Source: a virus
Length of the DNA: 24,123 nucleotides
IMG/VR virus record: IMGVR_UViG_3300030329_004562
Location: 1-24,123 of that record
Direction: 5' to 3' (one strand)
In this document: piece after piece, positions 3,652 through 6,384 of the stretch
Layout of the letters: each line of letters begins with the position of its first letter
Position numbering within the stretch: the first letter of the stretch is position 1
Translations under genes and position numbers: made by a program
Notes under the pieces: model-generated
Databases searched by the model: none
What the model saw: only the letters and a program-made list of their open reading frames with translations
Told to the model about the DNA's origin: nothing

Positions 3652-3834
3652 ATGAATGAATTTGAATTTAACAGACTTATCAGTGCTTTAGAAAAGCTGA
3701 CCAACGAGGTTCATGCCATGAGGATGGAGATCACTCCTGAACTGAGAAGGACTGAAACCCTCAGAAGGCAGCAGATTCAGGAGGATCAACTGATGTCCTC
3801 CATCCGCAAGGTGAGAGATAAGGTAAATGCGTGA
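3652..3834 (+). CDS. Small helical early protein, unknown function
   Basis: The protein has 60 aa and is almost entirely charged and predicted helical (FNRLISALEKLTNEVHAMRM), with a possible coiled coil. It is the first gene after the divergent control region and overlaps the methyltransferase start by four bases (ATGCGTGA), so both are likely translated from one transcript. It is too short and simple to assign; position is compatible with a Cro-like or antirepressor role, but no helix-turn-helix was seen. Confidence 0.5.
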   Translation: MNEFEFNRLISALEKLTNEVHAMRMEITPELRRTETLRRQQIQEDQLMSSIRKVRDKVNA

Positions 3835-4898
3835 TCTACGTTCTGGATCTCTTCAGTGGAATCGGAGGGTTCACACTCGCATCACAGTGGGTGGGTGGGT
3901 ACATGACTCTGGCATTCTGCGAAATCGAGGACTACTGCAGGAAGGTTCTGTCTCAGAACTTCCCCGACATCCCAATCTTTACTGATGTCAGAAAACTCCA
4001 CCCAACTGATGTTATTCCCAGAGATGGAGTCATCCACCTCATCACAGCAGGATTCCCCTGCCAAGACCTCTCCGTTGCAGGAAACCAAGCAGGAATTGAG
4101 GCAGACAGGTCAGGTCTCTTCTTCCAGATCCTCAGACTCAGTGATGAGTTCTATGCCTATAGCAGAGTTAGACCATCGTTGCTCCTGGAGAACGTCCCAA
4201 ACCTGCTTACTGGAAACGGGGGAGATTGGGCAAGAACCGTTTACTCAGAACTGGCCGTCAGAGGGTATCGTTGCGAGTGGAAAATTATATCCGCAAGTGA
4301 TGTGGGAGCACCTCATCTCCGCAAACGATGGTGGTGTCTCGCATACCTTCCCAACTCCAAATACAAAGGATCACGATTCAGAGACTCTGCAGAAATGGGA
4401 GAACAGAGCAGAGAAGAAAAAAGAACAGGGGATCAATCTGCACTTTGCACTGAGACATCACGTTCAGAAATTTCCTACTCCAAGGGCTTGCACGGCAATG
4501 TCAGCAACGATCACTCCAGAGTCCTCATGGAAGGACAATCGATTTCCGAATCTGGAGACCGTGGTAGGGAGGATGACATGGCCCACACCAAACGCATGGG
4601 ATGGAGCACGGGGTCCGTTGAGCAGGGAGAAGATGGAGGAGGGATACCACCAGATCACACTGGTGAGTGCAGTGAAGCATACATCATCAGATTCAGGAGC
4701 ACTGAACCCAGATTGGGTGGAGCACTACCTGATGGGCTATCCCCGTGGATGGACGAACCTGCAGACCTCCCCAGAGTGACTCATGAGAAGAAGTACCGAA
4801 AACAAAGACTCATGTCCTTGGGGAACAGTATTGTCCCTGCGGTTGCGATGATCCCACTGAGAAGGTTCAAGGAGATCCATGAGAAGCAATCTGCTTAA
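3831..4898 (+). CDS. dcm: DNA (cytosine-5-)-methyltransferase, Dcm-like
   Basis: The protein has 355 aa and starts with GTG. C5-methyltransferase motifs are in order: I (DLFSGIGGF, residues 6-14), IV (GFPCQDLSVAGN, catalytic C77), VI (LLLENVP, 117-123), VIII-like (SDVGAPHLRKR, 156-166) and X (LGNSIVP, 330-336). The stretch about 175-320 is the variable target-recognition part and is rich in S, R and E. The enzyme methylates cytosine in a specific DNA sequence and probably protects phage DNA from host restriction or modulates expression. It is followed at once by a VRR-NUC nuclease. A second long ORF lies in the +1 frame within this gene at 3985-4779. Confidence 0.9.
   Translation: MIYVLDLFSGIGGFTLASQWVGGYMTLAFCEIEDYCRKVLSQNFPDIPIFTDVRKLHPTDVIPRDGVIHLITAGFPCQDLSVAGNQAGIEADRSGLFFQILRLSDEFYAYSRVRPSLLLENVPNLLTGNGGDWARTVYSELAVRGYRCEWKIISASDVGAPHLRKRWWCLAYLPNSKYKGSRFRDSAEMGEQSREEKRTGDQSALCTETSRSEISYSKGLHGNVSNDHSRVLMEGQSISESGDRGREDDMAHTKRMGWSTGSVEQGEDGGGIPPDHTGECSEAYIIRFRSTEPRLGGALPDGLSPWMDEPADLPRVTHEKKYRKQRLMSLGNSIVPAVAMIPLRRFKEIHEKQSA
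3985..4779 (+). CDS. Long ORF nested in dcm in the +1 frame, possible dual-coding gene
   Basis: This open frame has 264 codons and lies wholly inside the methyltransferase gene. It does not look like random translation: the motif [FW]PTP[NR] occurs three times (residues 122-126, 163-167 and 199-203), and the C-terminus has NPDWVEHYLMGYPRGWT (241-257). From memory, similar PTP repeats and a NP-x-WVE-x-LMG-x-P-x-GWT ending occur in phage proteins annotated next to or within Dcm genes. No good ribosome binding site precedes ATG 3985; ATGs at 4009 and 4024 are alternatives. It may be a translated overlapping gene or a frame kept open by constraint on Dcm. No function is assigned. Confidence 0.42.
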   Translation: MSENSTQLMLFPEMESSTSSQQDSPAKTSPLQETKQELRQTGQVSSSRSSDSVMSSMPIAELDHRCSWRTSQTCLLETGEIGQEPFTQNWPSEGIVASGKLYPQVMWEHLISANDGGVSHTFPTPNTKDHDSETLQKWENRAEKKKEQGINLHFALRHHVQKFPTPRACTAMSATITPESSWKDNRFPNLETVVGRMTWPTPNAWDGARGPLSREKMEEGYHQITLVSAVKHTSSDSGALNPDWVEHYLMGYPRGWTNLQTSPE

Positions 4899-5289
4899 CC
4901 CTTCTGAGGGACAGATTCAGGCATCCATCCTCTCATGGGGAGATTGGCAGGAGGGGGTTCAGATGTTCAGGATCAACGTCATTGGAGTCCCAATGAAGGA
5001 TGGGAAGTTCAGACCTTCCTCCAATGTGGGTATGGCAGACATCCACATGACTGTCAGGACAGAAGGGATCTCAGTAGGGGTGTGGCTGGAGGTCAAGAGG
5101 AAAGGCAAACACCAGAGCAAGACCCAGAAAGACTTTGAGAGAAGGGTCAAGGAACAGAGTGGGTGGTACTTCATCGTCAGGTCCATCGAGGATGTTCAGG
5201 AGGTGGTCAGGATCATCCGTGATGACACCTGGAAGAAGATCAACAAACTACGCAAGGAGTTCAACGAATACGAGACAGGTCAAGGATGA
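4879..5289 (+). CDS. VRR-NUC domain nuclease
   Basis: The protein has 136 aa. The PD-(D/E)XK core of the VRR-NUC family is visible: GMADI (D54), then WLEVKRKG (E71, K73) and Q83 in KTQKDFE, followed by the strand GWYFIVRS. Family members cut branched or structured DNA, and in phages they usually serve recombination, replication or Holliday junction resolution. The start overlaps the end of dcm by 20 nt. The pairing with a methyltransferase also allows a restriction-modification reading, but VRR-NUC proteins are not usual restriction enzymes. Confidence 0.8.
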   Translation: MRSNLLNPSEGQIQASILSWGDWQEGVQMFRINVIGVPMKDGKFRPSSNVGMADIHMTVRTEGISVGVWLEVKRKGKHQSKTQKDFERRVKEQSGWYFIVRSIEDVQEVVRIIRDDTWKKINKLRKEFNEYETGQG

Positions 5290-5641: not shown

Positions 5642-5780
5642 GTACAGTGCGTTTCACCAGATGTGGGAGGTGGTAAAAAAAAACCACAGAGGACAGGGAG
5701 GGTCTGTGGCTATCAGACCGTTCCGTTCCAAAGTACAGGCAGAGAAATGGGTAATAAACCAAGTGAAAAGTGATGGGTGA
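5592..5780 (+). CDS. Small basic protein, unknown function
   Basis: The protein has 62 aa from GTG 5592, chosen because AAGGAG lies four bases upstream inside csrA; the frame is open further upstream but that part looks like a csrA shadow. It overlaps csrA by 50 nt. The layout is beta-rich then helical: YTIKYSAFHQMWEVVKK, a short basic Gly-rich loop, then FRSKVQAEKWVINQVK. This resembles small phage proteins with an aromatic strand and a terminal amphipathic helix, but I cannot name the family. The stop overlaps the start of the next gene. Confidence 0.55.
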   Translation: MKNDSIRKYPFQGYTIKYSAFHQMWEVVKKNHRGQGGSVAIRPFRSKVQAEKWVINQVKSDG

Positions 5781-6384
5781 TTATAAATTAGAAGTGAGAA
5801 TTAAGAATGGGAAATTCTCAAAAATGATGGAGAGTTTTGGAATAAAAACAGTTGCTGAATTAGCAAAGAAATCAAACGTCAATCTGGCAGCACTTTACTC
5901 CATAGCAAATCTTCAGTTAGATCCGTTTCTAAGAGTCCGTGATAGTTATCTTGGGACAAGAATTATAGAGGGACACTATAAGAAAGCATACAAAGAATTA
6001 AGTGATTTCTTCTGTGTATCCCCCTTAGACCTCTGGCCTGAAGACCTGAAGGAATCCTTAAAGAAATCAGTCACTACTAAATATTTTGATCTGAAAGATA
6101 TTTCACAGTTGGGACCAATAGTAGGTCATAAGGAGTTGCCTGATCCTGAAGAACATACAGATAAATATTTTCAAAAACAAATAATAGAAAAGGCATTATC
6201 TTCAATTAATCCTAAATATGAAAAAGTATTAAGAATGCGGTTTTTTGAAGATTGCACTTACGGTCAAATTGCAGATGAACTTGGTATTTCTGGAGAAAGA
6301 GTAAGGCAAATGATTATGAAAGGTTTAAGGCAAACAAAATTAATCCATAACAAAGATTTAAAATCATTCTGGGAGGAAAGTTAA
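5773..6384 (+). CDS. XRE-like helix-turn-helix fused to sigma70 region 4
   Basis: The protein has about 203 aa; ATG 5773 is preceded by an in-frame GTG at 5770. Residues about 25-95 resemble an XRE domain (TVAELAKKSNVNLAALYSIA, then DFFCVSPLDLWPE as in XRE regulators). Residues about 138-192 are a sigma70 region 4: ALSSINPKYEKVLRMRFFED, then the helix-turn-helix TYGQIADELGISGERVRQM. Region 2, which opens the -10, is missing. The protein could steer RNA polymerase to phage promoters or act as a co-regulator. It is AT-rich compared with its neighbours, a sign of separate origin. Stop and next start overlap (TAATG). Confidence 0.72.
   Translation: MGDYKLEVRIKNGKFSKMMESFGIKTVAELAKKSNVNLAALYSIANLQLDPFLRVRDSYLGTRIIEGHYKKAYKELSDFFCVSPLDLWPEDLKESLKKSVTTKYFDLKDISQLGPIVGHKELPDPEEHTDKYFQKQIIEKALSSINPKYEKVLRMRFFEDCTYGQIADELGISGERVRQMIMKGLRQTKLIHNKDLKSFWEES

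Follow-up and report, generated by a model that had tools for sequence, protein, structure and literature searches.

The 24,123-nucleotide stretch of viral DNA analysed here, which we call the window, carries a gene for a C5-cytosine DNA methyltransferase, and inside this gene a second ORF runs on the same strand in the +1 frame, starting with an ATG at 3985 and extending over 264 codons, as the original prediction had it. The question that this arrangement raises is whether the nested ORF (hereafter N) is a gene in its own right or a by-product of the methyltransferase gene (hereafter M) and, if it is a gene, what its product could contribute alongside an enzyme encoded by the very same DNA. 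The features needed to answer it are the following.

3831..4898, plus strand: M, C5-cytosine DNA methyltransferase in the dcm frame; starts with GTG; frame 0 holds motifs I-VIII and X.
3985..4779, plus strand: N, +1-frame ORF nested in M; 264 codons, ATG at 3985, stop at 4777-4779.
4003..4017, plus strand: QLMLF close to the start of N, conserved in the N frame; resembles a beta-clamp-binding motif.
4348..4470, plus strand: PTP module 1 of N, residues 122-162 (from the module split).
4471..4578, plus strand: PTP module 2 of N, residues 163-198 (from the module split).
4579..4701, plus strand: PTP module 3 of N, residues 199-239 (from the module split).
4365..4724, plus strand: stretch of the M frame that runs across the PTP modules (M residues 179-298); disordered by prediction, with relaxed constraint in the M frame.
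4702..4755, plus strand: motif IX-like block of N, LNPDWVEHYLMGYPRGWT, residues 240-257 (from hhalign and near-invariance in homologues).
4797..4892, plus strand: helices that form motif X of M (GNSIVP), in frame 0 (AF2 helices 323-330 and 336-354).

M matches PF00145 with E=3.2e-39 over residues 4-220 only, and the Dcm family phrog_363 ('DNA methyltransferase') with E=2.4e-57. The catalytic motifs I-VIII (FSGIGG, PCQ, ENV, GAPHxRxR) all lie within M, as judged from PF00145 and the alignment, and so does motif X (GNSIVP), which adjoins the catalytic domain in frame 0; the motif IX element, L-x-P-x(5)-L-[QM]-G-[FY]-P, is missing from M and is found in N. The +1 frame of N comprises 290 open codons if counted from the preceding stop. 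N matches phrog_1008, likewise annotated as 'DNA methyltransferase', with E=1.4e-16 over nearly its full length (residues 13-259 on profile positions 34-281 of 329). No domain was recognised in N by Pfam and NCBIfam, and PDB sequence searches with N, with an 80-member N profile and with the N of locus L158 returned nothing relevant. The three [FW]PTP repeats that had been read from the sequence are there (residues 122, 163 and 199), and the C-terminal block, NPDWVEHYLMGYPRGWT (residues 241-257), turned out to be a signature of the family, LNPDWVEHYLMGYPRGWT varying hardly at all across 80 homologues.

As for the neighbourhood of M, a 60-codon ORF at 3652-3834, for which a family match was sought and none convincing was found, has a stop that overlaps the GTG start of M (GTGA), which suggests translational coupling. 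The ORF at 4879-5289 overlaps the end of M and matches the phage resolvase/nuclease families phrog_824 and phrog_5702; a VRR-NUC gene adjoins the methyltransferase in the E. coli loci L287 and L288. Further downstream, a 204-codon ORF (5770-6384) has a C-terminus that by eye looks like sigma-70 region 4 (YGQIADELGISGERVRQ).

Relatives of N were sought by searching phage records, IMG/VR and GTDB genomes with tblastn and profiles for the N peptide in any frame; with the window included, this yielded 183 loci. In 172 of these N overlaps the catalytic domain of M in exactly the +1 frame, which bears out the suggestion of a second conserved protein, and in 168 of the 172 motif X lies in the M frame. 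Eight loci lack M, their contigs beginning inside the gene, and the rest are an apparent frameshift (L074), a tandem pair (L125) and a single-frame relative (L021). N as a free-standing separate gene was found at none of the 183. The loci come from phages, prophages and bacteria across many phyla, with Bacillota, Pseudomonadota, Spirochaetes and Actinomycetota among the hosts. Paenibacillus larvae phages annotate a nested +1 ORF of the same family in dcm (DIVA_50, 'g49 internal gene', and BLOOM_57); these annotations give neither function nor mechanism, and the internal gene is not discussed in the papers on these phages. Two further observations concern annotation: the E. coli prophages and satellites L282 and L284-L288 have the nested architecture and are annotated in RefSeq with M only, no restriction gene being recognised beside them (L282 is a prophage of E. 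coli PT62; a further homologue, L190, comes from a Salmonella phage), and in the Gordonia phage Bibwit (L191) a LAGLIDADG endonuclease ORF lies within a methylase gene annotated as joined from two pieces.

Could the conservation of Dcm, together with codon usage, suffice to keep the frame open? The odds originally attached to the open frame, about 3 in a million, are too strong: when synonymous codons are permuted with the M protein left unchanged, at least 290 open codons in the +1 frame arise with P=0.0036 (mean run 143), and a stop-free N interval with P=0.0032. The window gene alone thus offers moderate, suggestive evidence. Across loci the evidence is overwhelming, with P<0.05 in 147 of 162 loci. 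Frequent +1 stops in homologues, which the original prediction had proposed to look for, do not occur: over the catalytic half of 123 loci there are 68, where synonymous shuffles give 415, and 82 of these loci have no stop at all (6.5 expected), while a T4-like control methyltransferase without a nested ORF shows 25 stops against 27 expected.

The pattern of substitutions points the same way over the recognition half. Among 24 related pairs, substitutions in M are most frequent at codon position 3 in three regions: upstream, in the catalytic half and downstream. The recognition half differs. There the counts at positions 1, 2 and 3 are 1162, 733 and 866, and position 1, which is the wobble position of N, is fastest in 21 of the 24 pairs; the window's own relatives, aligned in the N frame, show the same pattern. 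Change at the 4-fold sites of M falls to 0.133 over this half, compared with 0.52-0.54 outside the overlap. Over the target-recognition half, therefore, the frame under selection switches from M to N. The reduction in synonymous Dcm change that had been proposed as a check is accordingly strong over the C-terminal half of N, but the drop over its N-terminal half is unspecific. There, over the catalytic half, the 4-fold value is 0.256, and T4-like/KP5-type control methyltransferases without a nested ORF (L188, L192-L196) give 0.277 over the catalytic region versus 0.52 and 0.48; since the control shows the same drop, we no longer count the low value as evidence for N. Unlike synonymous change, stop avoidance is valid evidence over this N-terminal half.

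Profile scores divide in a similar manner: where synonymous shuffles give 3.7 bits for the C-terminal half of N and 30.6 for the N-terminal half, the real sequences score 87 and 62.6. The motifs of M thus impose roughly half of the N-terminal score, which together with the absence of a Shine-Dalgarno sequence in the window speaks for an untranslated by-product; the synonymous-shuffle, stop-avoidance and codon-position tests nevertheless reject that explanation, and we give it next to no credence. N is very probably a real second gene, and dual coding at this locus is strongly supported by the comparison of homologous sequences.

How N might be translated is a separate matter. As had been remarked at the outset, its ATG lacks a good ribosome site, no Shine-Dalgarno sequence being found upstream (CCCAATCTTTACTG-ATG); several other genes of the window likewise have none. 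Among the relatives, 37 of 52 well-marked nested ATGs are preceded by an SD-like sequence, compared with 20% of random positions in the same genes, and internal initiation is thus the likely route by which N is translated. Alternatively, ribosomes translating M could be programmed to shift into the +1 frame after motif VIII, and maybe back before motif X, so that a fused chain would be made and N would never be started by itself. The selected frame does run 0, +1, 0 along the gene, as a double shift predicts, and relatives with everything in a single frame exist. A complete enzyme would, however, need two opposite shifts, and the upstream half of N would not be needed at all, yet it is kept open (68 stops versus 415 expected). 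Frameshifting would also leave unexplained both the conserved QLxLF start discussed below (32 loci versus 1.3 expected) and the SD-like sites before the nested ATGs, and we consider it highly improbable.

If N is a protein made from its own start, its content may be judged against what M appears to be missing. One-chain C5 methyltransferases carry their small domain between motif VIII and motif X. In the AF2 prediction of M, the catalytic domain has a pLDDT of about 95 and the motif X helices (323-330 and 336-354) reach 91-97 over most of their stretch; the 120 residues between motif VIII and motif X (179-298) fall below 50 and have almost no secondary structure. With this region predicted to be disordered, M appears to be without the small domain that C5 methyltransferases require. 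The original prediction had placed the target-recognition region in the Dcm frame and something else in N; the reverse seems to hold, the Dcm-frame stretch being fast-evolving and predicted disordered and N itself bearing the candidate target-recognition and motif IX region. The N block LNPDWVEHYLMGYPRGWT lies at the place expected for motif IX and was aligned by hhalign with single-chain and split mycobacteriophage methyltransferases at P=3.3e-10 and a probability of 96.7%; the match of the N profile to canonical motif IX enzymes is in the correct register and weak (P=0.038), too weak to stand alone. Predicted by itself, N gives a low-confidence fold (mean pLDDT 58.6, pTM 0.22), which fits an obligate partner and would also fit a sequence that is not a protein.

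Relatives show how the parts can be redistributed. In the mycobacteriophages RitaG and Tweety the PTP element, FPEWMMGWPAGW and GNGV lie in one ORF together with motifs I-VIII, and the RitaG ORF fits PF00145 end to end. Because its PTP and motif IX elements sit in the M frame, Tweety is a single-frame relative with no true N; a +1 match in Tweety was rejected as N, as it covers profile positions 67-152 only and has no motif IX block. In the mycobacteriophages Romney (L186) and JewelBug (L187) the methylase is annotated as two genes whose ORFs overlap, the second in the +1 frame, and each pair looks like one split C5 methyltransferase. In L118, L132, L152 and L158 the M chain ends behind motif VIII and motif X has passed to the N frame, the N of L158 matching both phrog_1008 and the Dcm family phrog_363; these four are natural intermediates between the nested and the AquI-like split enzymes. 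Motif X packs in the catalytic domain, and its presence on one chain in some loci and on the other in the rest would be difficult to account for if the two did not form one enzyme. We are fairly confident that M and N would be two parts of one split C5 methyltransferase, M the catalytic subunit and N the small subunit for target recognition, with motif IX. Among the roles first considered for N (inhibitor, partner or unknown component), that of partner would then be the right one, and N would be more than an accessory, namely a subunit that the enzyme cannot do without.

The recognition part of N is variable in a particular manner. The number of [FWLYA]xTP modules per N protein ranges from one to eight, and their median length is 38 residues. 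Between loci with catalytic domains under 60% identical there are 260 pairs of modules that reach an identity of 65% or more; 220 of these pairs differ in position or in the module count of N. Module 2 of the window, for example, is 85% identical to module 1 of L005, while the catalytic domains are 48% identical. The [FW]PTP repeats thus look like shuffled modules of about 38 residues, as in an exchange of recognition modules, and each may be a separate domain that reads a target.

The start of N carries a signal of another kind. Of 118 loci, 32 have Q[LM]xL[FL] in the +1 frame immediately ahead of the PCQ motif, where 1.3 are expected and 200 shuffles gave at most 4. The bacterial clamp-binding consensus is QL(S/D)LF, placed at the C-terminus (PMC9690074), as compared with QLMLF at the N-terminus of N in the window. 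The QLxLF start resembles a sliding-clamp-binding motif; if it tethered N to the clamp, methylation would take place at the replication fork, which is a lead only. Eukaryotic DNMT1 binds PCNA and so ties methylation to the replication fork. By analogy, one could imagine a widespread class of phage C5 methyltransferases with catalytic and recognition domains in two frames and a DNMT1-like, fork-tethering clamp motif on the nested subunit, an idea that we hold to be possible but rather unlikely.

In Javan374-type Streptococcus prophage methyltransferases the recognition region and motifs IX and X are in frame 0, and there is in addition a +1 ORF (phrog_16143; L189:1052-1468 and L200-L260), which begins QMSLFEE (QMSLFEE...SLSDILE) and contains 1 stop where 360 are expected. 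Since this type keeps recognition in frame 0, its nested product cannot be the whole recognition domain, and a separate role is probable for the N-terminal part of these nested proteins. The existence of a +1 product beside a complete enzyme also lends some weight to the view that N is translated as a separate protein, be it an inhibitor, a regulator or some other partner, which merely overlaps a complete Dcm. M of the window type, however, has neither motif IX nor a recognition domain predicted to be ordered, and motif X can pass from M to N; we see only a very small chance that this view is correct.

The split enzyme could be envisaged to work as follows. N would be translated separately, ribosomes starting at its ATG within M and reading the DNA in the +1 frame. 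M would supply motifs I-VIII and X, connected through a floppy linker, while motif IX and a row of [FW]PTP modules for recognition would come from N. Joined in a single enzyme, the chains would methylate phage DNA, and the modules would set its target sequence or sequences. No restriction gene was recognised nearby. Because the contexts are orphan, restriction-gene-free phages and prophages, the methylation would most likely serve evasion of host restriction.

If this is true, many lone 'DNA cytosine methyltransferase' annotations in phages and prophages describe half an enzyme. The other half would be lost whenever M is cloned by itself or recoded for expression, so that the enzyme would be scored as an inactive orphan. 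The pair would also be a large case of dual coding in which the gene falls naturally into a part constrained in one frame and a part constrained in the other, such that one can follow from base to base which way selection acts. Through its shuffled PTP modules it could offer a route to linking phage methylation specificity with sequence, and the QLxLF start raises a possible link between phage methylation and the replication clamp.

This kind of enzyme is known from M.EcoHK31I, while its breadth, its modules and its QLxLF start appear undescribed in the literature searched, in which few subscription journals were covered. A 1995 paper on M.EcoHK31I is said to place the small gene inside the large one, in another frame. 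We liken M and N to this enzyme, which consists of two polypeptides and recognizes YGGCCR, by its published description, according to which motifs I-VIII and X are in the large subunit and motif IX is in the small one (PMC3404938), the same split of motifs as here. M.EcoHK31I is, however, part of a restriction-modification system, whereas here no restriction gene was recognised nearby, and its recognition domain is assigned to the large subunit, whereas here the putative recognition modules are in N, which moreover begins with QLxLF. The small subunit of M.EcoHK31I has the accession X82231 (cited in PMC6174562). A search of Enterobacteriaceae genomes and E. coli records for M.EcoHK31I itself returned only prophage and satellite relatives, all orphans. 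M.AquI likewise consists of two polypeptides, and its small one holds motif IX together with a portion of the recognition region (PMC3404938); its motif X is in the small subunit, whereas here it is in M, except in the AquI-like L118, L132, L152 and L158. When M.SssI is split artificially, the best results come from a break located after motif VIII and ahead of the recognition domain (PMC3404938). N and M belong to phrog_1008 and phrog_363, a library that is silent on their being encoded by the same DNA in two frames. Finally, the multispecific C5 methyltransferases of Bacillus phages (SPR and its relatives; titles cited in PMC8936443) have several consecutive recognition domains in one enzyme; these enzymes are single chains, whereas in the enzyme proposed here the modules, if they are indeed recognition domains, would be borne by the separate chain N.
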